From Halorussus aquaticus (lineage in GTDB: Archaea; Halobacteriota; Halobacteria; Halobacteriales; Haladaptataceae), in the NCBI RefSeq assembly GCF_024218795.1, contig NZ_CP100400.1:1116001-1180000 (forward strand): 64,000 nt of DNA, given 5' to 3'. The first letter of the stretch is position 1. The number at the start of each line of letters is the position of its first letter. The position numbers and the translations under genes are program-made. Of this stretch, positions 12,843 through 28,215 are shown in pieces. The notes beneath the pieces were generated by a model, which was not told the DNA's origin, ran no database searches, and saw only the letters and a list, made by a program, of their open reading frames with translations.

Positions 12843-14684
12843 GTGGTACTCTCGCTGACGCCGGGCATCGCTGTCGTCTTTCTCGTCATCCTCGTAGCGC
12901 TGGTGCTGTTCGCCACCGAACCCGTCCCCATCGACATCACCGCTATCGGCATCATGGTGGCGCTGATGGTGCTGGAACCGTGGACGCGGGTCTCGCCCGC
13001 GGAAGGCGTCTCGGGGTTCGCCAGTTCCGCGACTATCACCGTCCTCGCGATGTTCATCTTGAGTTACGGCGTCCAACGGACCGGGGTCGTCCAGATTCTG
13101 GGCCGGAAGATAGCGGCGTTCACGAAAGACGACGAGACCCGGCAACTCGGCGCGACCATCGGCGTCGTCGGTTCCATCTCGGGGTTCATCAACAACACCG
13201 CGGCGGTCGCCATCCTCATGCCGATGGTGACTGACCTCGCCCACGAGGGCAACACCTCTCCCTCGAAACTGCTGCTCCCGCTCTCGTACGCCTCGATGTT
13301 CGGCGGGACGCTCACGCTCATCGGGACTTCGACCAACATCCTCGCCAGCGACCTCGCGGCCCGCCTCGGCGAGCAGAACCCGGCGGCGTTCGGCGATCTC
13401 CACGCCTTCTCGATGTTCGAGTTCACCTCGCTCGGCGTCCTCGTCTCGATAGTCGGCACGGCGTACCTGATGACCCTCGGTCGGTGGCTCACGCCCGCTC
13501 GCATCCCGCCGGAGGACGACCTCACCGAGGAGTTCGAGTTGGAGGAGTACCTGACCGAAGTGGTCGTCCGCGGCGACTCGCCGCTGGTCGGTCGGACCGT
13601 CGGGGACGCGCTCGCCGACATCGACTTCGACGTGGACCTCGTCCAACTCGTCCGCGGCGGGCAGTCGTTCGCCGAACCGCTCGGTCCCAAGGAGATTCAG
13701 GCCGACGACATCTTCGCGGTCCGGACCGACCGCGACACGCTCCTCGACCTCATCGACGCCGAGGGGTTGGCGCTGGTCCCGAACGTCGACGTGACCGAGG
13801 AGGAACTCGAAACCGCGAACGAGGAACGGAATCTGGTGGAGGTAGTCGTCGCGCCCCGGTCGTCGCTGATGGGTAAGACGCTCGCGACTGCGAACTTCCG
13901 CGAGCGCTACGACGCGACGGTCCTCGCGCTCCGGCGCGGTCCCGAGTTCATCCGCAAGCGCATGGACCACGCCGAGTTGCAGGTCGGCGACACCCTGCTC
14001 GTCTACGCGACGCCCGACAGCATCTCGCGTCTGAACGTCAACCGCGACTTCATCGTGGCCCAAGAGGTCGAACGACCCGATTACCGGGAATCGAAGATTC
14101 CGCTCGCGGTGGGTATCGTCGCGGCCGTGGTCGCGCTGGCCGCCCTCGACGTGCTCCCCATCATGGTCTCGGCGCTCGCGGGCGCGCTGGTGATGGTCGT
14201 GACGGGCGTCCTCGAACCGCCGGAGGTCTACGACGCCGTGGAGTGGGAGGTCATCTTCCTGCTCGCGGGCGTCATCCCGCTCGGCATCGCCATGGAGGAG
14301 ACCGGCGCGGCCAACCTGATCGCCGACCTGCTCGTGCTGTCGGCCGACTTCTTCCCGCCGATAGCGGTCCTCGGCCTGTTCTACGTCGTGACGGCGGTGT
14401 TGACGAACATCGTCAGCAACAACGCCAGCGTCGTGCTGATGATTCCGGTGGCCGCGGAGGCGGCCGTCCAACTCGACGCCAACGCCTTCGCGTTCGTCCT
14501 CGCGGTCACGTTCGCGGCTTCGACGGCGTTCATGACGCCGGTCGGCTACCAGACGAATCTCTTCGTCTACGGGCCGGGCGGGTACAAGTTCACCGACTAC
14601 GTTCGGGTGGGCGCACCCCTCCAAATCCTGTTCGCTATCACCACGACGCTCGGTATCGCCGCGATATGGGGCGTGACGCCGTGA
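12843..14684 (+). CDS. SLC13 family permease with two central RCK_C (TrkA-C) domains
   Basis: 613 residues from the GTG at 12843; a TTG four codons upstream at 12831 is the alternative. About 5 membrane segments precede and 6 follow a soluble middle section (residues about 230-400) holding two RCK_C-like domains: LVGRTVGDALADIDFDVDL and LMGKTLATANFRERYDATV. The permease repeats carry FINNTAAVAILMP with LIGTSTN, and IVSNNASVVLMIP with MTPVGYQTN, typical of DASS/SLC13 carriers for dicarboxylates, sulfate or similar anions. The soluble domains probably bind a ligand that regulates transport. The substrate is unknown. Confidence 0.92.
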   Translation: MVLSLTPGIAVVFLVILVALVLFATEPVPIDITAIGIMVALMVLEPWTRVSPAEGVSGFASSATITVLAMFILSYGVQRTGVVQILGRKIAAFTKDDETRQLGATIGVVGSISGFINNTAAVAILMPMVTDLAHEGNTSPSKLLLPLSYASMFGGTLTLIGTSTNILASDLAARLGEQNPAAFGDLHAFSMFEFTSLGVLVSIVGTAYLMTLGRWLTPARIPPEDDLTEEFELEEYLTEVVVRGDSPLVGRTVGDALADIDFDVDLVQLVRGGQSFAEPLGPKEIQADDIFAVRTDRDTLLDLIDAEGLALVPNVDVTEEELETANEERNLVEVVVAPRSSLMGKTLATANFRERYDATVLALRRGPEFIRKRMDHAELQVGDTLLVYATPDSISRLNVNRDFIVAQEVERPDYRESKIPLAVGIVAAVVALAALDVLPIMVSALAGALVMVVTGVLEPPEVYDAVEWEVIFLLAGVIPLGIAMEETGAANLIADLLVLSADFFPPIAVLGLFYVVTAVLTNIVSNNASVVLMIPVAAEAAVQLDANAFAFVLAVTFAASTAFMTPVGYQTNLFVYGPGGYKFTDYVRVGAPLQILFAITTTLGIAAIWGVTP

Positions 14685-14716
14685 CGTATCTGGGACGACA
14701 CGCCACAAACGAAATC

Positions 14717-14725
14717 CTTTACATA
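14717..14725 (+). promoter_or_regulatory. TATA element of tRNA-Pro
   Basis: CTTTACATA centred about 29 nt upstream of the first base of the tRNA, at the expected distance for an archaeal TATA box. Confidence 0.5.
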
Positions 14726-14749
14726 CACTGGCGCGCTACTAACTGGTGC

Positions 14750-14822
14750 GGGACCGTGGGGTAGCTTGGTATCCTTTCGGCCTTGGGTGCCGATAACCCC
14801 GGTTCAAATCCGGGCGGTCCCA
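14750..14822 (+). tRNA. tRNA-Pro (anticodon UGG)
   Basis: 73 nt fold as a cloverleaf. The acceptor stem GGGACCG pairs with CGGTCCC, with discriminator A. The D arm contains GGGGTAGCTTGGTATCC. The anticodon stem TCGGC/GCCGA holds the loop CTTGGGT, giving anticodon TGG. The T arm is CCCGG-TTCAAAT-CCGGG. CCA is not encoded. The stretch 14823-15088 after it shows no convincing gene. Confidence 0.96.
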
Positions 14823-15088
14823 TGCCGTCTAAACACGACTGTTTTGCGGAAATTTCGATACTGTGAACACCTGATGCTGGCAGTGTGGAGTACTCCGGAT
14901 AGAGCAATAGCCGCCGCTCGTGGTCTTTCAACAGACGGAGTAGGTCAGTCAGCGGTGACCACACGTGGAAACCACGCGGGCTGAAAGGTACTGCTGACCG
15001 TGCCGTCTACGTGTCCATTTCGCGTATCGACACAAAACACCTCCGATCCGCGGATTCGGAGTCGGGCCGCGGCCGCGACTACTCCGCT

Positions 15089-15217
15089 TCAGTCGGCACC
15101 CTGCACCCGAACCCATCCGCACTGCTCGCAGGTCTCGATTCCGGTGCGGAATCGGACCGCGGCGTCGCACTGCGGGCAGGGCGGCCGAGACCCGTCGGCG
15201 GACTCACTCGTCGTCAT
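15089..15217 (-). CDS. Zinc-ribbon micro-protein (42 aa, HVO_2753-like)
   Basis: Frame MTTSESADGSRPPCPQCDAA... ending CEQCGWVRVQGAD. The two CxxC pairs (CPQC and CEQC, separated by 12 residues) form a likely zinc knuckle, as in the small haloarchaeal two-CPxCG-motif proteins. Its start lies inside the last codons of the aldehyde dehydrogenase gene (14-nt overlap, same strand), so it is probably translated from the same transcript. Confidence 0.75.
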   Translation of the reverse strand: MTTSESADGSRPPCPQCDAAVRFRTGIETCEQCGWVRVQGAD

Positions 15218-16727
15218 CGGTCGTGACCTCGGCCGAGAGACCTTGCGCCATCTCGATGTCCGTGCTGTTGTTCAGCGTCCACGCGGTCCGGTCGGTGACG
15301 GCTTCGATGACCTCGCGGGCGCTGGGGTAGCCGTTGCCGGACTTCTTGACGCCGCCGAACGGCAGTTGGACCTCCGCGCCGATGCACGGCAGGTTGCCGT
15401 ACGCGAGACCGACTTCGGCGTGGTCGCGGTAGTAGTTTATCTGCCGGTAGTTCTCCGAGATGACCGCCCCCGCCAGTCCGTACTCCGTGTCGTTCTGGAT
15501 TTCGACGGCGCGTTCGATACCGCCCTCGTACTCGAGGAGCGCGACGTGCGGGCCGAACACCTCCTCGTGGGTGCAACGCAGGTCGGCGTCGGGGTCCGCC
15601 TCGTAGACGAACGGACCGACCCAGTGGCCGTCCTCGTGGCCGTCGGGAATCTCGTCGGCGTCGAGGTCCGTCCTATCGACGAGGACGTTCACGCCCTCCT
15701 CTCTCGCGAGTTCGTTGTAGTTCGCCACCTTCTGGCGGTGGGCCGCCTCGACCAGCGGCCCCATGAAGGTGTCCTCGTCTAGCGGGTCGCCGACCGCGAC
15801 TCGGGAGGCGGCCTCGACGAAACGGTCCTTGAACTCGTCGTACACGTCCGTGTGGACGACGAGGCGCTCGCTGGAGACGCAGCGCTGGCCCGTCGTCTTG
15901 AACGAGGACATCACCGCGCTGTGGACTGCGACGTCGAGGTCCGCCTCGTCGGTGACGACGACGGCGTTCTTCCCGCCCATCTCGCACGCCACCCGCTTGC
16001 CGGGGTCGGCGGCGACCGACTCCCCGATGCTGTGGCCGACCTCCGCCGACCCGGTGAACAGCACCGTGTCCACGTCGTCGGACTCGACGATGGCGTTGCC
16101 GACGTCGCCGAAGCCCTGTACCATGTTGAAGACGCCGTCCGGGAGACCCGCCTCGGCGAACAGTTCCGCGACGACGTGGGCGCACTCGGGCGTCTGCTCG
16201 GCGGGTTTGAACACGACGGTGTTGCCCTCGACCAGCGCGACCGCCATGTGCCAGTACGGAATCGCGACCGGGAAGTTCCACGGCGTGATGCACCCCGTGA
16301 CGCCGCGGGGCTTCCGGCGCATGTAGGCGTCCTTCGCGGCGATTTCCGACGGGACGATGTCGCCCTTGGGGTGGCGGGCGTCGCCCGCGGCCCACTCGAC
16401 CATGTGGGCGGCCTCGACCACGTCGGCGCGCCCCTCCGAAATCTCCTTGCCGCACTCTTGGCTCACGATTCTGCCGAGTTCGTCCGTTCGCTCCTTGAGC
16501 GCGTGATACACGTCCCAGAGGTACTCCGCGCGGTCGATGCGGGAGAGTTCGCGCCACTCCTCGAACGCCTCGTCGGCGGCCTCGACGGCGCGTTCTACGT
16601 CCCCGGGCGTTCCGTGGTAGAACTCGCCGAGCGCTTCGCCGGTCGCGGGGTTCTGACTCGTGAACGTGTCGGAACTCTCGCCGGTGACCCATTCGCCGTC
16701 GATGTAGTGTCGGTGTGCGTCTGCCAT
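15204..16727 (-). CDS. Aldehyde dehydrogenase family protein, probable 1-pyrroline-5-carboxylate dehydrogenase
   Basis: 507 residues from the ATG at 16725-16727. The NAD fold segment is ITPWNFPVAIP, the catalytic Glu lies in CEMGGKN and the catalytic Cys in GQRCVSSER; a second glutamate block is EEVFGPHVAL. The family oxidises aldehydes to acids with NAD(P). With the proline dehydrogenase gene only about 1 kb away, and an HTH regulator between them, the likely step is glutamate semialdehyde to glutamate, which completes proline breakdown. Other aldehydes cannot be excluded from sequence alone. Confidence 0.9.
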   Translation of the reverse strand: MADAHRHYIDGEWVTGESSDTFTSQNPATGEALGEFYHGTPGDVERAVEAADEAFEEWRELSRIDRAEYLWDVYHALKERTDELGRIVSQECGKEISEGRADVVEAAHMVEWAAGDARHPKGDIVPSEIAAKDAYMRRKPRGVTGCITPWNFPVAIPYWHMAVALVEGNTVVFKPAEQTPECAHVVAELFAEAGLPDGVFNMVQGFGDVGNAIVESDDVDTVLFTGSAEVGHSIGESVAADPGKRVACEMGGKNAVVVTDEADLDVAVHSAVMSSFKTTGQRCVSSERLVVHTDVYDEFKDRFVEAASRVAVGDPLDEDTFMGPLVEAAHRQKVANYNELAREEGVNVLVDRTDLDADEIPDGHEDGHWVGPFVYEADPDADLRCTHEEVFGPHVALLEYEGGIERAVEIQNDTEYGLAGAVISENYRQINYYRDHAEVGLAYGNLPCIGAEVQLPFGGVKKSGNGYPSAREVIEAVTDRTAWTLNNSTDIEMAQGLSAEVTTDDDE

Positions 16728-16772
16728 CGGTGTTCGTGGTGTTCGTCTGGTGGGAGAGCGCCAAATTCCCCC

Positions 16773-16788
16773 GCCGACCATGGACGGG
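16773..16788. promoter_or_regulatory. Operator-like site A (degenerate copy)
   Basis: GCCGACCATGGACGGG matches 14 of 16 positions of the perfect palindrome found at 16846 and 18626. It lies 46-61 bp before the aldehyde dehydrogenase ATG, directly upstream of the AT-rich AAATTCC that probably serves as the promoter of that minus-strand gene. Confidence 0.6.
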
Positions 16789-16845
16789 CGAGGCGTCCGG
16801 ACCCGTCGCGTCGCGAGTCCGGTCGACAGTCCCGTCCGACGCGTC

Positions 16846-16861
16846 CCCGACCATGGTCGGG
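16846..16861. promoter_or_regulatory. Operator-like palindrome B
   Basis: Perfect 16-bp palindrome CCCGACCATGGTCGGG, 53-68 bp upstream of the HTH_10 regulator start. The identical 16-mer recurs at 18626-18641 ahead of the ABC transporter. It is a probable binding site for the regulator encoded next to it. Confidence 0.7.
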
Positions 16862-16913
16862 CGCATCCTCGTTGGACCGACACACGCAATAGTGCGTGAG
16901 GCCTATATCAGGG

Positions 16914-17633
16914 ATGACTATCGCGGAACAGATACCGGGAACGAGACTGACGCTCGACTTGTGGCATCCGAACTGCTGGGCCATCGAGGCGACCGAACGG
17001 ACCGGCGGCGGCGTGTTGGCGCACGCGATTTACAACTCCCCGACGACCGAGGACCGACCGTCGTCGGTCAACGGTCTCTTCACGGCCTTCGGCGAGACGG
17101 AGGCAGAGGTCGAACGCCTCTTCGACGCCATCCGCGCGTCCGACCGCGCCGGGGAACTGCTGGAACTGCAGGAGCGCTTCGGCCGCGCGCGCAACGCGCC
17201 GGGCAACGTGGTCCGGGAGTTCTTCTTGGAGTACGACCCCGACGACATGGTCTGTCCCACGTTACTGGAGAACGGATTCGTCCACAGCGCGCCGGTCCGA
17301 ATCGAGAACGGCAGGGAGGAGTGGCACGTCGGGTTCGCGGGCGAACGGTCCGGCATCGAGGACGCGCTGCAGACCGTCCGCGAGCAGGCGGGCGCCGAGG
17401 TGAGCATCGACTCCATCACGGCCGCCGACGCCAACGGCCGGTCCCCGCGCGACCAGCGACTCGACACGCTCACGACTACCCAGCGGAAGGTCTTCGAGCA
17501 CGCCCGCGAGACGGGGTACTACGAGTGGCCCCGCGGGACCTCGACCCGCGAACTGGCCGACGACCTCGACGTCTCGAAGACGACGCTGCTCGAACACCTC
17601 CGGAAAGCCGAGTCGAAACTTCTCGACCCGTAG
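16914..17633 (+). CDS. HTH_10 (bacterio-opsin activator-type) regulator, probable proline-utilisation regulator
   Basis: 239 residues from the ATG at 16914; an in-frame GTG lies at 16896. Residues 1-170 form an effector/sensor region of the Bat type. The C-terminal 50 residues (LTTTQRKVFEHARETGYYEWPRGTSTRELADDLDVSKTTLLEHLRKAESKLL) are the HTH_10 DNA-binding domain. The gene sits between the aldehyde dehydrogenase (divergent) and proline dehydrogenase (convergent). By position it should control proline catabolism. A 6-bp inverted repeat CACGCA-ATAG-TGCGTG (16883-16898) just before the start may be an extra site. Confidence 0.88.
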   Translation: MTIAEQIPGTRLTLDLWHPNCWAIEATERTGGGVLAHAIYNSPTTEDRPSSVNGLFTAFGETEAEVERLFDAIRASDRAGELLELQERFGRARNAPGNVVREFFLEYDPDDMVCPTLLENGFVHSAPVRIENGREEWHVGFAGERSGIEDALQTVREQAGAEVSIDSITAADANGRSPRDQRLDTLTTTQRKVFEHARETGYYEWPRGTSTRELADDLDVSKTTLLEHLRKAESKLLDP

Positions 17634-17660
17634 CCTCCTCTAGATACCCCCGACCACAGT

Positions 17661-18488
17661 TCAGCGCCCGACGATGGCCCGCAGCGCGAACAGCGCGTTC
17701 GATTTCCGCTCGCGGATGCGGCGGTAGAAGTAGGAGAACCACTTGCTCCCGTAGGGGACGTACTGGTAGACCTCGACGTCCTCGGCGAGGTCGAACTGCG
17801 CCCGCTCGCGGACGCCCATCAGCATCTGCACCTCGTAGGGCGTCCCGTGTTCGTCGTGGAGTTCTCGCGCGAGGTCTATCATCGCGGGGTCGTGACTGCC
17901 GACGGCGACGCCGTCGTCGAACTCGCGGAACATGAACGAGAGGAGGTCTCGGTACGACTCGTCCACGCGCGCTTTCTTCTTGTAGGCGATTTCCGCCGAC
18001 TCGTCGTACGCGCCCTTGACGAGGCGCACCTTGCCCGGCACGTCGGCGAGTCGTTCGAGGTCGTCGCGGGTCCGCTTCAGATTCGCCTGCACGCAGACGC
18101 CGACGCGGCCGTCCGTCTCGCGGGCGTGTCGTTCGAAAGCGTCCAGCGTCACGTCCGTCGTCTCGTGGTCCTCCATGTCTATCCAGACGAAGCAGTCGGC
18201 GGCGTCCACGATTCGCGCGAGGTTCTCCCGGAAGACGGAGTCGCCGACGCCGAGTCCGATCTGGCTCGGCTTGACGGAGATGCAGGCGTCGGACCCCCGG
18301 TCGGCGATGGCCGCCGCGAGTTCGACGTACGCGTCGGCGTCGGCGTCCGCGGGCGGGCGGTCCTCGTAGTGTTCGCCGAGCAGATTCAGGATGGCCGCCA
18401 CGCCTCGGTCGTTCACGCCGTCCACGTGGGTCAGCGCCGACTCGGGCGTCTCGCCTGCGACGAAGTCGTTGGCAATCGGTGGTATCAC
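17661..18488 (-). CDS. Proline dehydrogenase family protein
   Basis: 275 residues from the GTG at 18486-18488, chosen because family members begin MIPPIA..FVAGET. The PRODH barrel blocks are present: ISVKPSQIGLG, FVWIDMEDHETTDVTLD, VRLVKGAYDE, GSHDPAMI, YEVQMLMGV, then VPYG..WFSYFYRRIRER, which carries the substrate-binding RRxxER motif. The enzyme oxidises proline to pyrroline-5-carboxylate using FAD and feeds the aldehyde dehydrogenase encoded nearby. Confidence 0.93.
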   Translation of the reverse strand: MIPPIANDFVAGETPESALTHVDGVNDRGVAAILNLLGEHYEDRPPADADADAYVELAAAIADRGSDACISVKPSQIGLGVGDSVFRENLARIVDAADCFVWIDMEDHETTDVTLDAFERHARETDGRVGVCVQANLKRTRDDLERLADVPGKVRLVKGAYDESAEIAYKKKARVDESYRDLLSFMFREFDDGVAVGSHDPAMIDLARELHDEHGTPYEVQMLMGVRERAQFDLAEDVEVYQYVPYGSKWFSYFYRRIRERKSNALFALRAIVGR

Positions 18489-18524
18489 GACGCACACTAG
18501 AGACGCGACCCACCTATACGGGAA

Positions 18525-18533
18525 CCCGACCAT
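18525..18533. promoter_or_regulatory. Operator half-site upstream of proline dehydrogenase
   Basis: CCCGACCAT, one complete half of the 16-bp palindrome including its centre, lies 37-45 bp before the GTG start of the proline dehydrogenase gene. The second half is not conserved here (AAGTTAC follows). Confidence 0.45.
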
Positions 18534-18624
18534 AAGTTACAGCGAACGGCCGGTGAGTATAAGTGCTAGTCCCGTGAATACACGAAAACAGCGTTTTCGC
18601 GACTTTCAGTTGCTCTACCGGGAT

Positions 18625-18642
18625 GCCCGACCATGGTCGGGC
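18625..18642. promoter_or_regulatory. Operator-like palindrome C ahead of the ABC transporter
   Basis: GCCCGACCATGGTCGGGC is a perfect 18-bp palindrome with the same 16-bp core as site B. It lies 41-58 bp upstream of the substrate-binding protein start, tying the transporter operon to the proline genes. Confidence 0.7.
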
Positions 18643-18682
18643 CGGGGTTAACCCCCTCGTGGTACAACTCCACATAGACGTA

Positions 18683-19981
18683 ATGTCACGAAACATCGTG
18701 GATATCATCGACCGGCGGACGCTGCTGAAGGCCGCGGGCGGCGCGGGCGTCACCGCGTTGGCCGGTTGCGTGAGTTCGACGGACGACGGGTCCGAGGAGA
18801 CGACGGAGACCGAAACCGACGGGACGACCGAAACCGACGGGACGACCGAAAGCGGAAGCAACGGCGGCCCCTACGCCATCGGGATGGTGGATTCGCTCAC
18901 CGGTTCGCTGTCGGCGTTCGGCGAGCGCAATCAGCGCGGGAAGGACCTCGCACTGAAGCGAGTGAACGACGTGGGCATCAACGGACGAGACCTCAAGATA
19001 ATCGTCGAGGACTCCGAGTCGGAGAGTCAGGGCGGCGTCTCGGCCGCCCAGAAGCTGGTGAACCAGAATCAGGTCCCCTTCCTCATCGGGTCCGTCGGGT
19101 CCGGCGTCTCGCTGGCCATCTACGAGAGCGTCGTTCAGGGCACCGACGTCGTCCAACTGAGCCAGAACTCCACGGGACTGAGTCTCACCGACTTCCCCGG
19201 TCTGCTCCGGATGTCGCCGACCGGTCGCACCCAATCGACCGCGCTGTCGAACATCATCGCGGACGACGGCTACGACGAAGTCGCCGTCACCTACGTCAAC
19301 AACGACTACGGGCAGAGCCTCGCCGACGCGTTCGAGCAGTCCTACGACGGCGAGATAGCCTACAAGAACCCCCACGACCAGAAGCAGCAGTCCTACTCGG
19401 GCGTCGTCTCGGAGATGAACAGTTCCGGTGCCGACGCGTGGCTGTTCATCACCTATCAGGCGGAGTTCGCCACGATGGTGAACGAGGCCTACTCCAGCGG
19501 CTACGAGGCGCAGTTCTACGGTGCCGACTCCGTCTCGGGCGACAACGTCCTCGAGAACACCCCGAAAGGGAGCATGGACGGCATGAAAATCGTGGTGCCG
19601 TCGGCCCCGGTTGACCAGGACAACTACAAGGAGTTCGCCAGCGCGTTCAAAGAGGAGTACGGCGAGGAACCGACCGCGTGGTCGGCCTACGCCTACGACT
19701 GCGTCGTCACGGCAGCCCTGTCGATTCAGGCCGCCGACGAGTTCACCGGCAAGGCGCTCCAGAAGACCGTCCGCGAGGTGACTCGGCCGGAGGGCCAGAA
19801 GGTGACCTCCTTCGAGGCCGCGAGCAAGATTCTCTCCGACGGCGGTGGCGTGGATGACGTGGACTATCAGGGCGTCAGCGGTCCCATCGACTTCGACGAG
19901 AACGGCGACCCCGTGGGCTATCTCCAGATTCTCACCGTCGAGAACCACGACTACGTCGGAACCGGCTTCATCGAGTCGTAA
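18683..19981 (+). CDS. ABC transporter substrate-binding lipoprotein (branched-chain amino acid/amide type)
   Basis: 432 residues. The N-terminus has the Tat signature DRRTLLKAAGG and a lipobox ALAGC, followed by an acidic Thr/Glu spacer, so the protein is exported folded and lipid-anchored. The rest is a periplasmic-binding type I fold (YAIGMVDSLTGSLSAFGERNQRGKDLAL...), as in LivJ. It is the first gene of a five-gene operon. Controlled with the proline genes by the shared palindrome, it may bind proline or another amino acid. Confidence 0.92.
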   Translation: MSRNIVDIIDRRTLLKAAGGAGVTALAGCVSSTDDGSEETTETETDGTTETDGTTESGSNGGPYAIGMVDSLTGSLSAFGERNQRGKDLALKRVNDVGINGRDLKIIVEDSESESQGGVSAAQKLVNQNQVPFLIGSVGSGVSLAIYESVVQGTDVVQLSQNSTGLSLTDFPGLLRMSPTGRTQSTALSNIIADDGYDEVAVTYVNNDYGQSLADAFEQSYDGEIAYKNPHDQKQQSYSGVVSEMNSSGADAWLFITYQAEFATMVNEAYSSGYEAQFYGADSVSGDNVLENTPKGSMDGMKIVVPSAPVDQDNYKEFASAFKEEYGEEPTAWSAYAYDCVVTAALSIQAADEFTGKALQKTVREVTRPEGQKVTSFEAASKILSDGGGVDDVDYQGVSGPIDFDENGDPVGYLQILTVENHDYVGTGFIES

Positions 19982-19988
19982 GCACCCA

Positions 19989-20885
19989 ATGGCCCTTCTA
20001 GAACACTTCGTCAACGGGCTGATATTCAGCAGCATCATCGTCCTCGGGAGTATCGGGCTGTCGCTCGTCTACAGCATCGCCGACTTCGCGAACTTCGCCC
20101 ACGGCGACACGATGACCATCGGGGCGTACTCGGCGCTGGTCACCTTCGGGGCCGTCGGCGGCCTCGGCGGAGCCGTGTTCGGACTTCCGCTGGGCTTCTT
20201 CGTCGCGCTGCTGGTCGGTATCGCCGTGGCGGCAGTCGTCGCCGTCGTCACCGAGAAGGTCGTCTACGAACCGCTCGACGTCGGCTCCATCGGACTGCTG
20301 ATAACGTCCATCGGCGTCGCCTTCGTCTACCGCGCGGTGATTCAGATGGGGTTCGGCGCGGACTTCACCCGGTACGACATCCGACCGCTCCGGCCCATCG
20401 AGTGGCTCGTCCCCTACGGAATCCGCGTCACCCAACACGACGTGGCAATCGCCGTCTCGGCGCTCGTGCTGGTGAGCGGGCTTCACGTCCTGCTCCAGCA
20501 CAGCGACCTCGGTCGGAAGATGCGCGCGATGGCGGACAACCCCGACCTCGCCCGCGTGAGCGGTATCCGCACCGACCGCATCAAACTGTGGACGTGGATT
20601 ATCGGCGCCGGACTAGCCGGTGCTGGCGGCGTGTTCCTCGGTCTCTACAACCAGCTCGCGCCGCGGATGGGGTTCGACCTGCTGCTGCTCATCTTCGCGG
20701 CAGTCATCCTCGGCGGTATCGGCTCCGTCTACGGGGCGATGCTCGGCGGACTCCTCATCGGCATGATAAACCAGTTGACGCCGGTGCTTCCCGTCGGCAT
20801 CGAGTACGCCAACGCCATCGCGTTCGTCATCATGGTGGCCGTGCTGCTCGTCCGTCCCAACGGAATCGCACAGGAGGCGACCTGA
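19989..20885 (+). CDS. Branched-chain amino acid-type ABC permease, LivH family
   Basis: 298 residues, ATG 7 nt after the preceding stop. Eight or so hydrophobic helices and the LivH blocks ADFANFAHGDTMTIGAY, GLLITSIGVAFVYRA and the cytoplasmic loop RAMADNPDLARVSGI, which contacts the ATPases, are visible. It forms the membrane channel with the LivM-type partner that follows one base later. Confidence 0.92.
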   Translation: MALLEHFVNGLIFSSIIVLGSIGLSLVYSIADFANFAHGDTMTIGAYSALVTFGAVGGLGGAVFGLPLGFFVALLVGIAVAAVVAVVTEKVVYEPLDVGSIGLLITSIGVAFVYRAVIQMGFGADFTRYDIRPLRPIEWLVPYGIRVTQHDVAIAVSALVLVSGLHVLLQHSDLGRKMRAMADNPDLARVSGIRTDRIKLWTWIIGAGLAGAGGVFLGLYNQLAPRMGFDLLLLIFAAVILGGIGSVYGAMLGGLLIGMINQLTPVLPVGIEYANAIAFVIMVAVLLVRPNGIAQEAT

Positions 20886-20886
20886 G

Positions 20887-22098
20887 ATGGGCGCACTCAC
20901 CGACCCGACCGAGTACTGGGCGGACCTCACGCGACCCGAACAGGGCGTCCTCGCCTTCGTCGTCGGGTTCGCAGCGCTGCTGCTGTTCGGCCTGCTCTCG
21001 GGCGGACTCGCGCCGACGTACTTCCTGTATCTCGTCGGTCTCGCGGGGATGTACTCGCTGCTGTCGTTCGGACTGAACTCCCAGTGGGGGTTCTCCGGAC
21101 TGATCAACTTCAGCGTCGCGGCGTTCTTCGGTATCGGCGCGTACGGCACCGCGCTCATGAGCGCGAGTACGTCCCCCATCGCCGGGGGGTACAGCCCGCT
21201 CGTCGGACTCGTGGTCGCGCTCGTCGTCGCGGGCCTGCTGGCGGTCCTCATCGGCGTGCCGACGCTCCGTCTCCGCGCGGACTACCTCGCCATCGCGTCG
21301 CTCGGACTGGCCGAGGTCGTCCGACTCGTCGTCCTCAACGAACGCCAGTGGACCAACGGGAGCGCGGGCGTCCGCGGCATCCCGAGTTTCTTCGAGGGGT
21401 GGCCGCTGCTGGACACGTTCCCGAGCGCGATGCCCGGACTGGAGGTCGCGCTCCCCGGCGCTCGAATCGTCCTCGAAACGCCGTTCTGGAACGCGCTGTT
21501 GAACGTCGCGCTCGTCGTGACGTTCGTCAGCGTCACCTACGCGGTCCTCAAGCGCGCCCACCGCTCGCCGTGGGGTCGCGTCCTGCGGACGATTCGGTCC
21601 GACGAGGACCTCGCGCGGGCGCTGGGGAAGAACACCTACTCGTTCAAGATGCAGTCGTTCGTCCTCGGCAGTCTGATAATGGCGCTGGCGGGCGTCTTCT
21701 ACGCCCACCTGAACCTGTTCGTCAGCCCCGGCGACCTCGACCCCGTGACGACGTTCTACGTCTGGGTCGCGGTCATCCTCGGCGGCAGCGGTTCGAACCG
21801 CGGCGCGCTGTTCGGCGGGTTCGTCATCGTCGCCATCCGCGAGGGCACCCGGTTCCTCAACGAACTCGAACTGATGTTCGAACTCGGCGGATATCTCGTT
21901 CATCTTCAGGTTCCCTTCGACCCCGCGCCGCTGCGGCTACTGATAATCGGCGTCCTCATCATCGCGCTGATGCGGGTCCGACCGGAGGGCATCCTGCCGC
22001 CCCAGCGCGAACTCATCTGGCCCGACGCCGTCGACGGCGCGCCGTCCCGGCCAGACTCCGGCGTCCGCGACGCCAAGGGAGGTGGCGACGGTGAGTGA
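20887..22098 (+). CDS. Branched-chain amino acid-type ABC permease, LivM family
   Basis: 403 residues. LivM-type blocks: FGLNSQWGFSGLINFSVAAFFGIGAY, LRADYLAIASLGLAEVVR, and the ATPase-contact loop RTIRSDEDLARALGKNTYSFK. About nine transmembrane helices are followed by a short hydrophilic tail (DAVDGAPSRPDSGVRDAKGGG) that overlaps the start of the next gene. Confidence 0.92.
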   Translation: MGALTDPTEYWADLTRPEQGVLAFVVGFAALLLFGLLSGGLAPTYFLYLVGLAGMYSLLSFGLNSQWGFSGLINFSVAAFFGIGAYGTALMSASTSPIAGGYSPLVGLVVALVVAGLLAVLIGVPTLRLRADYLAIASLGLAEVVRLVVLNERQWTNGSAGVRGIPSFFEGWPLLDTFPSAMPGLEVALPGARIVLETPFWNALLNVALVVTFVSVTYAVLKRAHRSPWGRVLRTIRSDEDLARALGKNTYSFKMQSFVLGSLIMALAGVFYAHLNLFVSPGDLDPVTTFYVWVAVILGGSGSNRGALFGGFVIVAIREGTRFLNELELMFELGGYLVHLQVPFDPAPLRLLIIGVLIIALMRVRPEGILPPQRELIWPDAVDGAPSRPDSGVRDAKGGGDGE

Positions 22099-22909
22099 CC
22101 TCGAATCCGCGACCGACCCGCGTCTGGGCGCGAACCTCTCGAAGGAGAACGTCGTCCTGCGCGTGGACGACCTCCAGAAGTCGTTCGGCGGACTGGTCGC
22201 CACCGACCACGCCACCTTCGAGGTCGAACGCGGGACCATCACCGGTCTCATCGGTCCGAACGGTGCCGGTAAGTCCACGATATTCAACCTCATCTCGGGA
22301 TTCTACGAACCCGACGCCGGGCGCGTCGAGGTCAACGGGACCGACGTCACCGGCGCGGAACCGTACGAAGTGGCCGACCACGGACTGATTCGGACGTTCC
22401 AGACCCCCCGGAAACTGGAGGGAATGACGGTCCGCGAGGCGATGCTGGTGGGACCGCGAAAGCAACCCGGCGAGTCGTTCGTGAAACTGTTCACCTCGCC
22501 GGGCGAAGTCGCCGAGAGCGAGTCGCGCAACCTCGCCGACGCCCAGCGAATCTTGGAGGAGTTCGAGATCGATCACCTCGCCACGCAACCGGCGACGGAC
22601 CTCTCGGGCGGGCAGATGAAACTGGTCGAACTGGCCCGCGCGATGCTGGCCGAACCGGAGGTCCTCCTGCTGGACGAACCGGTCGCGGGCGTCAACCCGA
22701 CGCTCCGGAACAAACTCGCCGAGCAGGTTCGCCGACTCAACGAGCAGGGGACGACGTTCCTGCTCATCGAACACGACATGGAGTTCGTCATGAATCTCGC
22801 AGACCCGGTGGTGGTGTTAGACCGCGGGAGCGTTCTCATGGAGGGAACCCCCGACGAGGTGCAGTCCGACGACCGCGTCGTCGAGGCGTATCTGGGAGGT
22901 GGCACGTGA
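22091..22909 (+). CDS. ABC transporter ATP-binding protein, LivG type
   Basis: 272 residues from the GTG at 22091, which overlaps the LivM stop (GTGAGTGA); a GTG at 22082 is the alternative. Walker A GPNGAGKST, the signature LSGGQMK, Walker B VLLLDEP and the switch His in LIEHDMEFV are all present. With the LivF-type protein it forms the ATPase dimer of the transporter. Confidence 0.93.
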   Translation: MSDLESATDPRLGANLSKENVVLRVDDLQKSFGGLVATDHATFEVERGTITGLIGPNGAGKSTIFNLISGFYEPDAGRVEVNGTDVTGAEPYEVADHGLIRTFQTPRKLEGMTVREAMLVGPRKQPGESFVKLFTSPGEVAESESRNLADAQRILEEFEIDHLATQPATDLSGGQMKLVELARAMLAEPEVLLLDEPVAGVNPTLRNKLAEQVRRLNEQGTTFLLIEHDMEFVMNLADPVVVLDRGSVLMEGTPDEVQSDDRVVEAYLGGGT

Positions 22910-23616
22910 GCGACCACGTTCTCGAACTGTCGGGCGTGGACAGCGGCTACGGCGAGGTGCAGGTGCTCGACGACTGCTCGATACACCTCGACGCCGACGA
23001 AATCGTCTGTCTCATCGGTCCGAACGGCGCTGGCAAATCGACCGTCCTCAAGACGGCCTTCGGCATGCTGACGCCGTGGGCGGGAACCGTCGAGTATCAC
23101 GGCCGCGAAATCGGCGGGATGGCCCCCGAAGACATCGTCCGGGAGGGCATCGGCTACGTGCCCCAGACCGACAACGTGTTCGGGTCGCTCACCATCGACG
23201 AGAACCTCCGAATGGGCGGCGTCGCCCGCGAGGACGGTCTCTCGGAGGTCATCGCGGACCTGTACGACCGCTTCGACATCCTCGACCAGAAGCGGTCGGC
23301 GAAGGCCAACACCCTCTCGGGCGGACAGCGACAGGTGCTGGCGTTCGCTCGGGCGCTCGTGATGGAACCGGACGTCCTCCTCATCGACGAACCGTCGGCC
23401 GGACTCGCGCCGAACACCGCCGACGACGTGTTCGGACACGTGCAGGCCGTCAACGAGATGGACACCGCGATTCTCATGGTCGAGCAGAACGCCACGAAGG
23501 GTCTCGGTATCTCCGACCGCGGCTACGTCCTCGACCAAGGTTCGGTCCGCTTCGAGAACGCCGCGGCCGACCTCATCGACAACGAGGAAGTGTCGCAGCT
23601 CTATCTCGGCGGGTAA
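22906..23616 (+). CDS. ABC transporter ATP-binding protein, LivF type
   Basis: 236 residues, GTG start overlapping the previous stop by 4 nt. Walker A GPNGAGKST, signature LSGGQRQ, Walker B VLLIDEPSAGLAP and MVEQNA in the switch region are LivF hallmarks. It ends the five-gene operon; about 110 bp separate it from mcm. Confidence 0.93.
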   Translation: MSDHVLELSGVDSGYGEVQVLDDCSIHLDADEIVCLIGPNGAGKSTVLKTAFGMLTPWAGTVEYHGREIGGMAPEDIVREGIGYVPQTDNVFGSLTIDENLRMGGVAREDGLSEVIADLYDRFDILDQKRSAKANTLSGGQRQVLAFARALVMEPDVLLIDEPSAGLAPNTADDVFGHVQAVNEMDTAILMVEQNATKGLGISDRGYVLDQGSVRFENAAADLIDNEEVSQLYLGG

Positions 23617-23725
23617 CGTCGTCCTCTCCGGCGGGTAGCGCCGCCCTCCGTGGGAGAGACGGCGGCTTCACTTCCGCTCTGCTTTACGAAGGTTCTTATC
23701 GAAGGAGGAACTACGAGTTCTTTGA

Positions 23726-25822
23726 ATGGCTCGCGCGGAGAACACGGAGCTGATTGATAACTTCGAGCAGTTCTACCGGCGGTACTACAGCGACGAAATC
23801 GGCGAACTCGCCCAGAACTATCCGAACGAACAGCGCTCGCTCCACGTCGATTGGACCGAACTCTATCGGTACGACTCCGACCTCGCAGACGACTTCGTCT
23901 CGAAACCCGAACAGTTGCGCGAGTACGCCGAGGAAGCGCTCCGCCTCTACGACCTCCCGGTGGACGTGAGTCTGGGGCAGGCCCACGTCCGAATCGAGAA
24001 TCTGGACCAGCAGACCGACATCCGCGAGATTCGCGCCCGGCACGTCAACACGCTGGTCAGCGTGCAGGGCATCGTCCGGAAGGCGACCGACGTGCGACCC
24101 AAGATTCAGGAGGCCGCCTTCGAGTGCCAGCGCTGCGGCACGCTGACGTACATCCCCCAGAGCAGCGGCGACTTCCAGGAACCCCACGAGTGTCAGGGCT
24201 GTGAGCGACAGGGACCGTTCCAGATAAACTTCGACCAGTCCGAGTTCGTGGACTCCCAGAAACTCCGCATTCAGGAGAGTCCCGAGGGACTCCGCGGCGG
24301 CGAGACGCCGAAGAGTCTCGACGTTCACATCGAGGACGACATCACCGGCGATGTGACCCCCGGCGACCACGTGAAGGTCACGGGCATCCTCCACCTCGAA
24401 CAGCAGGGGAGCGAGCAGGACAAGTCCGCGGTGTTCGACGTGTACATGGACGGCATCTCGGTGACCATCGAGGACGAGGAGTTCGAGGAGATGGACATCA
24501 CCGACGAGGACAAGAAGGAAATCGTCGAACTCTCGCAGGAAGAGGGCATCTACGAGCAGATGGTCGATTCGATGGCCCCGGCCATCTACGGCTACGACGA
24601 GGAGAAACTGGCGATGATTCTCCAACTGTTCTCGGGTGTGACCAAGCATCTGCCCGACGAGTCCCGGATTCGGGGTGACCTCCACATGCTGTTGATAGGT
24701 GACCCCGGTACGGGTAAGAGCCAGATGATTTCGTACGTCCAGAACATCGCGCCGCGGTCGGTGTACACCTCCGGCAAGGGGTCCTCGTCCGCCGGTCTCA
24801 CCGCCGCCGCGGTCCGCGACGACTTCGGCGACGGCCAGCAGTGGACCCTCGAAGCGGGCGCGCTCGTCCTCGCGGACAAGGGCATCGCCGCGGTGGACGA
24901 ACTCGACAAGATGGCCCCGGACGACAGGAGCGCGATGCACGAGGCGCTCGAACAGCAGAAGATTTCGGTGTCGAAGGCCGGAATCAACGCCACCCTCAAG
25001 TCCCGATGCTCGCTGCTCGGGGCCGCGAACCCCAAGTACGGCCGGTTCGACCAGTACGAACCCATCGGCGAGCAGATAGACCTCGAACCCGCGCTCATCT
25101 CCCGGTTCGACCTCATCTTCACCGTCACCGACCAACCCGACGAGGAGGAGGACAAGCGACTGGCCGAACACATCCTGCAGACGAACTACGCGGGGCAGTT
25201 GAACACCCAGCGCACGGAGATGAGCGCGCCGAACATCTCGCAGGCGGAGGTGGACAACGAGACCCAAGAGGTCGCGCCCGCCATCGAACCCGACCTCCTC
25301 CGGAAGTACATCGCCTACTCGAAGCGCAACTGCTTCCCGACGATGACCGACGAGGCGATGGAGCGCATCCGGGACTTCTACGTGGACCTCCGGACGAAGG
25401 GGGCCGACGAGGACGCGCCCGTCCCCGTGACAGCCCGGAAACTGGAGGCGCTGGTACGACTCGCGGAGGCCAGCGCCCGCGTCCGCCTCTCGGACGAGGT
25501 GAAAATCGAGGACGCCGAACGCTCCGTGCGAATCACTCGCTCGTGCCTCCAAGACATCGGCGTGGACCCCGAGACCGGTCAGTTCGACGCCGACGTGGTC
25601 GAGACCGGCCAGTCGAAGTCCCAGCGCGACCGCATCAAGAACCTGAAACAACTCATCGGCGAAATCGAGGAGGACTACGAGGAGGGCGCGCCGGTGGACG
25701 AGGTGATGGCTCGCGCCGACGAGATCGGCATGGAGCAGTCGAAGGCCGAACACGAGATAGACAAACTCAAACAGAAGGGCGAGGTGTACGAACCCTCGAC
25801 CGACCACCTGCGGACGACCTGA
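23726..25822 (+). CDS. mcm: Minichromosome maintenance protein MCM, replicative DNA helicase
   Basis: 698 residues without intein. N-terminal domain A is followed by the OB fold with a zinc site (CQRC...CQGC), a double beta-hairpin region, and the AAA+ core: GDPGTGKSQ (Walker A), AAVDELDKM (Walker B), LGAANPKYGRF (sensor 1) and ISRFDLIF (arginine finger). A C-terminal winged helix closes the protein (QLIGEIEEDYEEGAPVDEVMARADEIG). It unwinds DNA at forks as a hexamer. The following 92-residue gene begins 5 bp after its stop. Confidence 0.98.
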   Translation: MARAENTELIDNFEQFYRRYYSDEIGELAQNYPNEQRSLHVDWTELYRYDSDLADDFVSKPEQLREYAEEALRLYDLPVDVSLGQAHVRIENLDQQTDIREIRARHVNTLVSVQGIVRKATDVRPKIQEAAFECQRCGTLTYIPQSSGDFQEPHECQGCERQGPFQINFDQSEFVDSQKLRIQESPEGLRGGETPKSLDVHIEDDITGDVTPGDHVKVTGILHLEQQGSEQDKSAVFDVYMDGISVTIEDEEFEEMDITDEDKKEIVELSQEEGIYEQMVDSMAPAIYGYDEEKLAMILQLFSGVTKHLPDESRIRGDLHMLLIGDPGTGKSQMISYVQNIAPRSVYTSGKGSSSAGLTAAAVRDDFGDGQQWTLEAGALVLADKGIAAVDELDKMAPDDRSAMHEALEQQKISVSKAGINATLKSRCSLLGAANPKYGRFDQYEPIGEQIDLEPALISRFDLIFTVTDQPDEEEDKRLAEHILQTNYAGQLNTQRTEMSAPNISQAEVDNETQEVAPAIEPDLLRKYIAYSKRNCFPTMTDEAMERIRDFYVDLRTKGADEDAPVPVTARKLEALVRLAEASARVRLSDEVKIEDAERSVRITRSCLQDIGVDPETGQFDADVVETGQSKSQRDRIKNLKQLIGEIEEDYEEGAPVDEVMARADEIGMEQSKAEHEIDKLKQKGEVYEPSTDHLRTT

Positions 25823-28190: not shown

Positions 28191-28215
28191 ACCGAAGACG
28201 CGACGAACCCCGGCC

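Follow-up and report, generated by a model that had tools for sequence, protein, structure and literature searches.

A palindromic site shared by proline-catabolism genes and an ABC importer of Halorussus aquaticus, with an HTH_10 protein as its predicted regulator

The locus and its palindromic sites

We examined 64,000 nucleotides of Halorussus aquaticus DNA (contig NZ_CP100400.1, positions 1,116,001 to 1,180,000; hereafter the window), in which genes of proline catabolism (put genes) and amino-acid uptake appear to share a regulatory site. The locus is composed of an aldehyde dehydrogenase (ALDH) gene on the minus strand, an HTH_10 regulator gene on the plus strand, a proline dehydrogenase (PDH) gene on the minus strand, and a five-gene HAAT/LIV-type ATP-binding cassette (ABC) importer operon on the plus strand, all with Pfam scores above cut-off (Table 1). 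According to Pfam the importer set is complete, with a substrate-binding protein (SBP; Peripla_BP_6), two BPD_transp_2 permeases and two ABC ATPases encoded consecutively. The nearest PDB chains to the PDH of the window are themselves proline dehydrogenases (1.2e-39).

The 16-bp palindrome CCCGACCATGGTCGGG is present in two exact copies in the window, ahead of the regulator and the importer operon, and in a copy with two mismatches ahead of the ALDH gene; one more window match, with three mismatches, is located at 28209. The PDH gene (GTG at 18488) is preceded by the half-site CCCGACCA(T). A first-pass annotation, made from the letters alone, had listed these two exact copies, the 14/16 copy and the half-site, and all of them were found again. 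Its statement that they lie 37–70 bp from the start codons holds for ALDH (42 nt), the regulator (52 nt) and SBP (41 nt), while the PDH element, at 36 nt, falls slightly below that range.

Table 1. Genes and predicted regulatory elements of the locus, in window coordinates
Feature	Position	Strand	Basis
ALDH, presumed pyrroline-5-carboxylate (P5C) / glutamate-semialdehyde step	15204..16730	-	PF00171, 477.8 bits
HTH_10 regulator	16914..17633	+	PF04967, 71.6 bits (cut-off 23.1), residues 186-237
PDH	17661..18488	-	PF01619, 98.8 bits (cut-off 27)
SBP (HAAT / Peripla_BP_6)	18683..19981	+	PF13458, 149.4 bits
Permease 1 (BPD_transp_2)	19989..20885	+	PF02653
Permease 2 (BPD_transp_2)	20887..22098	+	PF02653
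ATPase 1 (LivG-like)	22082..22909	+	PF00005, PF12399
ATPase 2 (LivF/UrtE-like)	22906..23616	+	PF00005; NCBIfam below cut-off
Predicted operator, ALDH promoter, 2 mismatches	16773..16788	-	Palindrome match and conservation
Predicted operator upstream of regulator, exact palindrome	16846..16861	.	Palindrome match and conservation
Predicted PDH promoter element, half-site TGGTCGGG at 18525-18532	18525..18540	-	55 promoters compared
Predicted operator, transporter operon, exact palindrome	18626..18641	+	Palindrome match and conservation

Taken alone, the window is weakly unusual, with four matches at ≤3 mismatches versus 1.31 expected and with 4 of 100 shuffles reaching four. The 4.74-Mb genome contains 14 places at ≤2 mismatches (two exact, one with one mismatch and 11 with two, including that at 16773) versus one for the reversed control pattern, and both exact copies belong to this locus. 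Eleven of these places lie elsewhere than in this locus; by a rough open reading frame (ORF) heuristic, 10 of them overlap an ORF and one does not. In 16 other regulator-bearing genomes an exact 13-mer core was found at 36 places, half of them (18, in 15 genomes) in put loci; 16 of the 18 non-put places are in reading frames and two (L187, L190) are not, as judged by a rough ORF picker, some of whose frames may be spurious (e.g. L185). The search for a wider regulon, covering the own genome at ≤2 mismatches and the exact core in these 16 genomes, gave nothing convincing besides the put genes.

Sites and regulator across related genomes

Orthologous loci were taken as the best 80 of 93 regulator relatives in named genomes (61–87% identical). 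Together with the window, they show the site in 72 of 73 scored ALDH promoters at ≤4 mismatches (57 at ≤3), in all 46 scored SBP promoters at ≤3, and in 60 of 80 scored regulator promoters at ≤4 (50 at ≤3). Most Halorubrum loci have a single ALDH/regulator site; two are present in the window and in the orthologous loci of Halorussus, Halosimplex and Haloarcula pellucida / Halomicroarcula. In two Natronomonas loci (L069, L070) the transporter is inverted and a 3-mismatch site is retained. The transporter is missing from eight Natrialbaceae-type loci, where the PDH and ALDH genes diverge from a region that holds a site with 2 to 4 mismatches. Among the outcomes that the first-pass annotation named as speaking against its reading were many copies of the palindrome at unrelated genes and missing sites in closely related loci. 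Elsewhere in the genome copies are few and nearly all inside reading frames, and in the orthologous loci the sites are kept.

Without the window, the 80 loci amount to 1.24 Mb, and 94 of their 95 matches with ≤2 mismatches are located no more than 170 nt upstream of put-gene starts. The reversed control gave none near put starts and one elsewhere, and 19 of 20 shuffled palindromes gave none near put starts and 0–8 elsewhere; the remaining shuffle returned 94 near and one elsewhere, identical to the motif, and is taken as the motif redrawn by shuffling. Chance, or a transcribed RNA element, is an exceedingly improbable source of such a pattern. The window-level counts are indeed not extreme, but chance matches would not be so concentrated at put starts, the single Rfam match within 14500–24000 is a tRNA, and the sites are not expected to be transcribed because they precede a TATA-like stretch.

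The PDH promoters carry the most invariant element among the promoter sites. The half-site TGGTCGGG is present in 55/55 of them, counting that of the window; 41 copies are exact, 13 have one mismatch and one has two. Its distance to the start codon is 35–39 nt, and in 39 promoters it is 36 nt. To the left of the half-site stand eight partly conserved bases of the GAAAnAnT type (GTAACTTA in the window), which are not a second palindrome half. In the logos of all four promoters TATA-like bases follow ~7–10 bp after the site, most clearly at SBP and PDH and more weakly at ALDH and the regulator, so that placement relative to the TATA-like stretch is nearly constant and the regulator would sit beside the transcription factor B (TFB) recognition element (BRE). 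Weak core promoters were also considered as a mark of activation, and this idea was dropped, as PDH promoters with and without the half-site did not differ in TATA rank (p = 0.85).

Presence of the sites tracks presence of the regulator. All 28 genomes of the window's family have a PDH, and three of them encode the regulator at ≥87% identity; these three also contain the exact 14-mer core, which the other 25 lack. Resident PDH copies number 28, of which 27 were scorable, with no exact half-site in any and two one-mismatch versions, at 18 and 56 nt. The window genome has a second, resident PDH (L128 5587-6420; G000:C1:1044586-1045419), 64–65% identical and without the half-site.

A class-wide sample of 292 genomes contained the regulator (E ≤ 1e-60) in 115 and the SBP (E ≤ 1e-120) in 92. 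Fourteen genomes had the SBP and no regulator match at that threshold, and all 14 SBP regions were read; one, L144, which carries the site, was excluded from the regulator-less set since its contig ends ~650 bases past the PDH. SBP promoters have the site at ≤3 mismatches in 49/49 regulator loci versus 0/13 regions without a close regulator match, where the best match within 300 nt has 4–8 mismatches (Fisher p = 1.2e-13, uncorrected for kinship, and more distant regulators are possible in the 13).

For PDH, the same sample provided 47 promoters, 30 from the best PDH loci and 17 from 14 genomes that lack a close match to the regulator. The half-site TGGT[CA]GGG is present, at ≤1 mismatch, at all 15 copies linked to a regulator, including those of L237, where the regulator is ~2 kb away, and L252, where it is 43% identical. 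In genomes that lack a close regulator match, it is absent from all 20 copies that have no put genes linked to them; at least two of these genomes (G051, G214) encode a divergent regulator next to a different PDH. A PDH beside an ALDH in L251, where the sequence read contains no regulator, also lacks the half-site. Among 11 copies that lie apart from put genes in genomes with the regulator, two have it. L252 had been listed as an exception (half-site without close regulator match), which was resolved by the adjoining 43% regulator with its site.

More divergent regulators are accompanied by sites as well. Four loci of genus g11 (probably Haloarcula), with regulators of 48–50% identity, have the ALDH site at ≤3 mismatches in 4/4, the SBP site at ≤3 in 3/4 and TGGTAGGG at PDH in 4/4, and L134, with a 46% regulator, has the half-site at PDH. 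The co-occurrence favours the first-pass proposal that the HTH_10 protein binds this site, and we regard that protein, strongly on comparative grounds, as the predicted binder of the palindrome. It is improbable that another, unlinked factor binds it, with the HTH_10 gene as a mere neighbour: some HTH_10 paralogues with a near-identical helix-turn-helix (HTH) do lack nearby sites, but the SBP and PDH sites are missing where the regulator is missing and present alongside its divergent forms.

Eighteen regulator-bearing genomes were chosen for having no intact PDH in the fetched regulator locus, and 17 of them have PDH elsewhere, at 19 places in total. Two of these places are PDH-SBP units of the put clade, one ~14 kb from the regulator (L196) and one on another contig (L197), and both retain the half-site and a 2-mismatch palindrome. 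Five others are PDHs of another clade, 58–62% identical to that of the window, each with a palindrome 34–37 nt before the start (L200, three mismatches; L201, two; L208, two; L209, four; L212, five); the L201 gene is ~72 kb from the regulator and the L200 gene is on another contig. The remaining 12 have no site. A tree of 49 PDHs places the put-linked copies in a single group (support 85/93) and the five palindrome-bearing paralogues outside it (three label changes). Palindromes at five distant paralogous genes imply that the operator was gained, or kept, at a non-adjacent gene of another clade, and control by the regulator probably works in trans.

Some loci depart from the common layout. In Halomarina oriensis (L072 8699-8902) a short partial PDH match lies beside the regulator and transporter, and a PDH of 58–59% identity, without a site, is located elsewhere. 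In L154 (5151-10754) a 61% regulator homologue is beside a different HAAT importer (SBP 23% identical), with the 4-mismatch ACCTCCCATGGTCGGC ahead of a TATA, which suggests that the regulator family may control several amino-acid importers. The Halorussus salinisoli locus (L015 9705-10346; L131 5798-6439) has only ATPase 2 left beside PDH, with no match to SBP, permease or ATPase 1. A tRNA-Pro(TGG) gene (14750-14822) adjoins the locus of the window and two other same-genus loci (L131/L015, L132), and was not seen at seven scanned loci of other genera; it may mark a place where an accessory put module integrated.

A predicted proline-responsive control module

The regulator gene is one of 32 HTH_10 matches in the window genome. 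Its AlphaFold2 model shows two beta-alpha-beta-beta-alpha-beta units followed by a C-terminal HTH (best mean predicted local distance difference test, pLDDT, 81; predicted template modelling score 0.63; pLDDT 56 to 81 across five models). The compared regulators are near-identical at their HTH end, which reads SKTTLLEHLRKAESKLLDP in the window. A sequence-profile search of the PDB returned nothing significant for the N-terminal fold, with an AsnC-family chain at E = 0.3 only, and Pfam finds HTH_10 alone, with no AsnC-type DNA-binding domain. Judging from the model, the N-terminal part would be a ferredoxin/ACT-like amino-acid sensor.

We suggest that a dimer of the regulator binds CCCGACCATGGTCGGG a few bases upstream of BRE/TATA at the ALDH, regulator and transporter promoters, and the half-site in the same position at the PDH promoter. 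Sensing of proline, or of a catabolite, by the N-terminal domains would then most likely activate these promoters, with a joint increase in HAAT-type ABC uptake and oxidation to glutamate. Overall, we consider it likely, and well supported by comparison of genomes, that the HTH_10 protein binds the palindrome and co-activates proline catabolism and the transporter in this way.

Activation rather than repression is preferred for two reasons. One is the position of the sites ahead of the TATA-like stretch in the logos, a placement that fits activation from a site upstream of TATA, as in known HTH_10 members. The other is that the relatives NarO and DmsR are haloarchaeal activators (PMC11218638; this and all other papers cited are represented by excerpts, to which our statements about them refer). 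Repression, in which the same protein at the same sites blocks TFB beside the TATA box until released by proline, is unlikely. In its favour, the sites adjoin the region of expected TFB binding, and a site before the regulator's own gene (60/80) is common among repressors; however, they lie ahead of the TATA-like stretch and the start and overlap neither, and NarO and DmsR are activators (PMC11218638). Co-occurrence of regulator and sites is itself compatible with either sign.

Several findings weigh against the proposed co-activation. The site is absent from 20 of 80 regulator promoters, and autoregulation is thus not universal; a site common to ALDH and regulator, often the case, was counted for both; and the regulator promoter of the window itself shows no clear TATA where the usual spacing would place one. 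TATA quality does not differ between the distinct PDH promoters with the half-site and those without, perfect boxes being found in 2 of 79 and 12 of 67, respectively. Of 15 regulator-bearing genomes in which the sole PDH found is non-adjacent and outside the put clade, five have the site and ten do not. In G039 an SBP orthologue distant from a 61% regulator homologue has no site (L153), and in L146, with no close regulator match, TTGGTCGGG stands 41 nt before SBP (start 5241), followed by ATATATATA. Lastly, the five loci of Haloarcula regulator paralogues (63%) have no site at ≤3 mismatches, and in the three inspected the HTH is near-identical, with no site before the paralogue or the neighbouring transporter; these proteins may act elsewhere in trans or bind something else. 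One of the Haloarcula 63% paralogues follows an SBP_bac_3-type amino-acid ABC operon (L079 4732-8696), where no operator was seen.

Proline is a reasonable candidate for the cargo of the transporter, because PDH, ALDH and the transporter have the sites in common. Two Natrialbaceae loci with an M24/prolidase-type peptidase gene adjoining the regulator (L030 6694-7872; L064 6646-7845), and G027 with an SNF symporter near the regulator-ALDH-PDH set, also count for proline. So does the presence of the 3ip5 series, taken to be Atu2422, among the PDB relatives of the SBP, since Atu2422 contributes to proline uptake (PMC5924552). All five proteins score below the branched-chain Liv equivalogs of NCBIfam (LivG 230.9 vs cut-off 362, LivF 191.9 vs 441, LivH 114 vs 379, LivM 123.4 vs 366, SBP subfamily 85.4 vs 477).

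A different cargo (glutamate, branched-chain amino acids or several) in a broader nitrogen response, with the sites still belonging to the regulator, is a serious competitor that we hold to be less probable. Counting against proline, the SBP resembles general amino-acid binders, and its PDB relatives include binders of several amino acids, namely 3ip5 and 3ipc, which we take to be Atu2422, and 4gnr and 4q6b, whose ligands are presumably amino acids. Atu2422 takes γ-aminobutyric acid (GABA), proline, alanine and valine (PMC5924552). Orthologous transporters without adjoining put genes exist: in the pieces read from 13 genomes without a close regulator, ALDH adjoins the transporter only in L138 and PDH in none. 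Haloferax volcanii putA and aldH2 are up on alanine versus ammonium, with no proline rise predicted (PMC6801745). Nevertheless, the transporter stays beside PDH under the same site in distant genera, even where it is inverted (L069, L070).

The role of the ALDH in the P5C/glutamate-semialdehyde step is likewise presumed from context. Here the family scores tell against us, as the protein falls short of the P5C dehydrogenase cut-offs (TIGR01237 / NF002852, 330.7 vs 659.65 and 339.5 vs 648) and of every NCBIfam equivalog among the matches listed; its best PDB matches are betaine aldehyde dehydrogenases.

More tentatively, and with the odds somewhat against it, the locus may be a self-contained module with two ferredoxin/ACT-like sensor units in its regulator, in which full palindromes at the uptake, ALDH and regulator promoters and a half-site with a GAAA-type element at PDH would give graded control, and which could be gained or lost as a unit and capture a distant PDH of another clade via the operator.

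Relation to known systems

To our knowledge, few haloarchaeal HTH_10 proteins have known targets. Our analysis gives one of them a predicted regulatory role, a precise predicted operator and a short list of candidate targets. In the open-licence PMC literature we found neither a haloarchaeal put regulator nor a defined operator of an HTH_10 regulator for amino-acid catabolism; subscription papers are mostly outside that collection, and either may have been published. A synthetic role has been both suggested and doubted for haloarchaeal PutA (PMC3402447), and of seven genomes with proline dehydrogenase only one had a P5C dehydrogenase (PMC3102087). Control shared with the transporter argues for PutA in breakdown and for this ALDH as the P5C dehydrogenase. 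If the module reading is true, it would supply an HTH_10 operator for amino-acid catabolism, the missing haloarchaeal P5C dehydrogenase and a named proline ABC importer. What induces putA in Haloferax volcanii, a signal described as unclear (PMC6801745), becomes testable.

That organism offers a close parallel, in which HVO_1190, placed between HVO_1189 and HVO_1191, is probably the orthologue of the regulator, with homologous aldH2 and putA genes (HVO_1189 / HVO_1191) that respond together to alanine versus ammonium, for which the excerpts give neither a regulator nor a site; the motif AAAGACTAART reported there comes from other promoters, and the table leaves putA and aldH2 unmarked for it (PMC6801745).

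Bat, NarO and DmsR, which we take to belong to HTH_10, are close regulators for comparison, with Bat working from the upstream activator sequence of bop. They are haloarchaeal activators of the bacterioopsin-activator type, NarO and DmsR likewise without PAS and GAF domains, and they serve light use or anaerobic respiration, whereas the regulator described here would serve amino-acid catabolism (PMC11218638, PMC3184054).

In bacteria, proline catabolism is known to have regulators of its own, such as Caulobacter PutR, an Lrp-like, proline-responsive activator of putA (PMC6168545). The logic of a dedicated regulator, acting as activator with proline as likely effector, is shared, while the protein family differs (Lrp-like versus HTH_10) and putA of Caulobacter is a single bifunctional gene. 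In bacteria, the trifunctional PutA that has a ribbon-helix-helix domain also controls the put regulon (PMC5293562), but there the enzyme itself is an autogenous repressor, whereas here enzyme and regulator are encoded by separate genes. On the uptake side, the Agrobacterium Atu2422/Bra transporter shares the SBP family and the contribution to proline uptake, and differs in being bacterial, of low specificity and under other regulation (PMC5924552).

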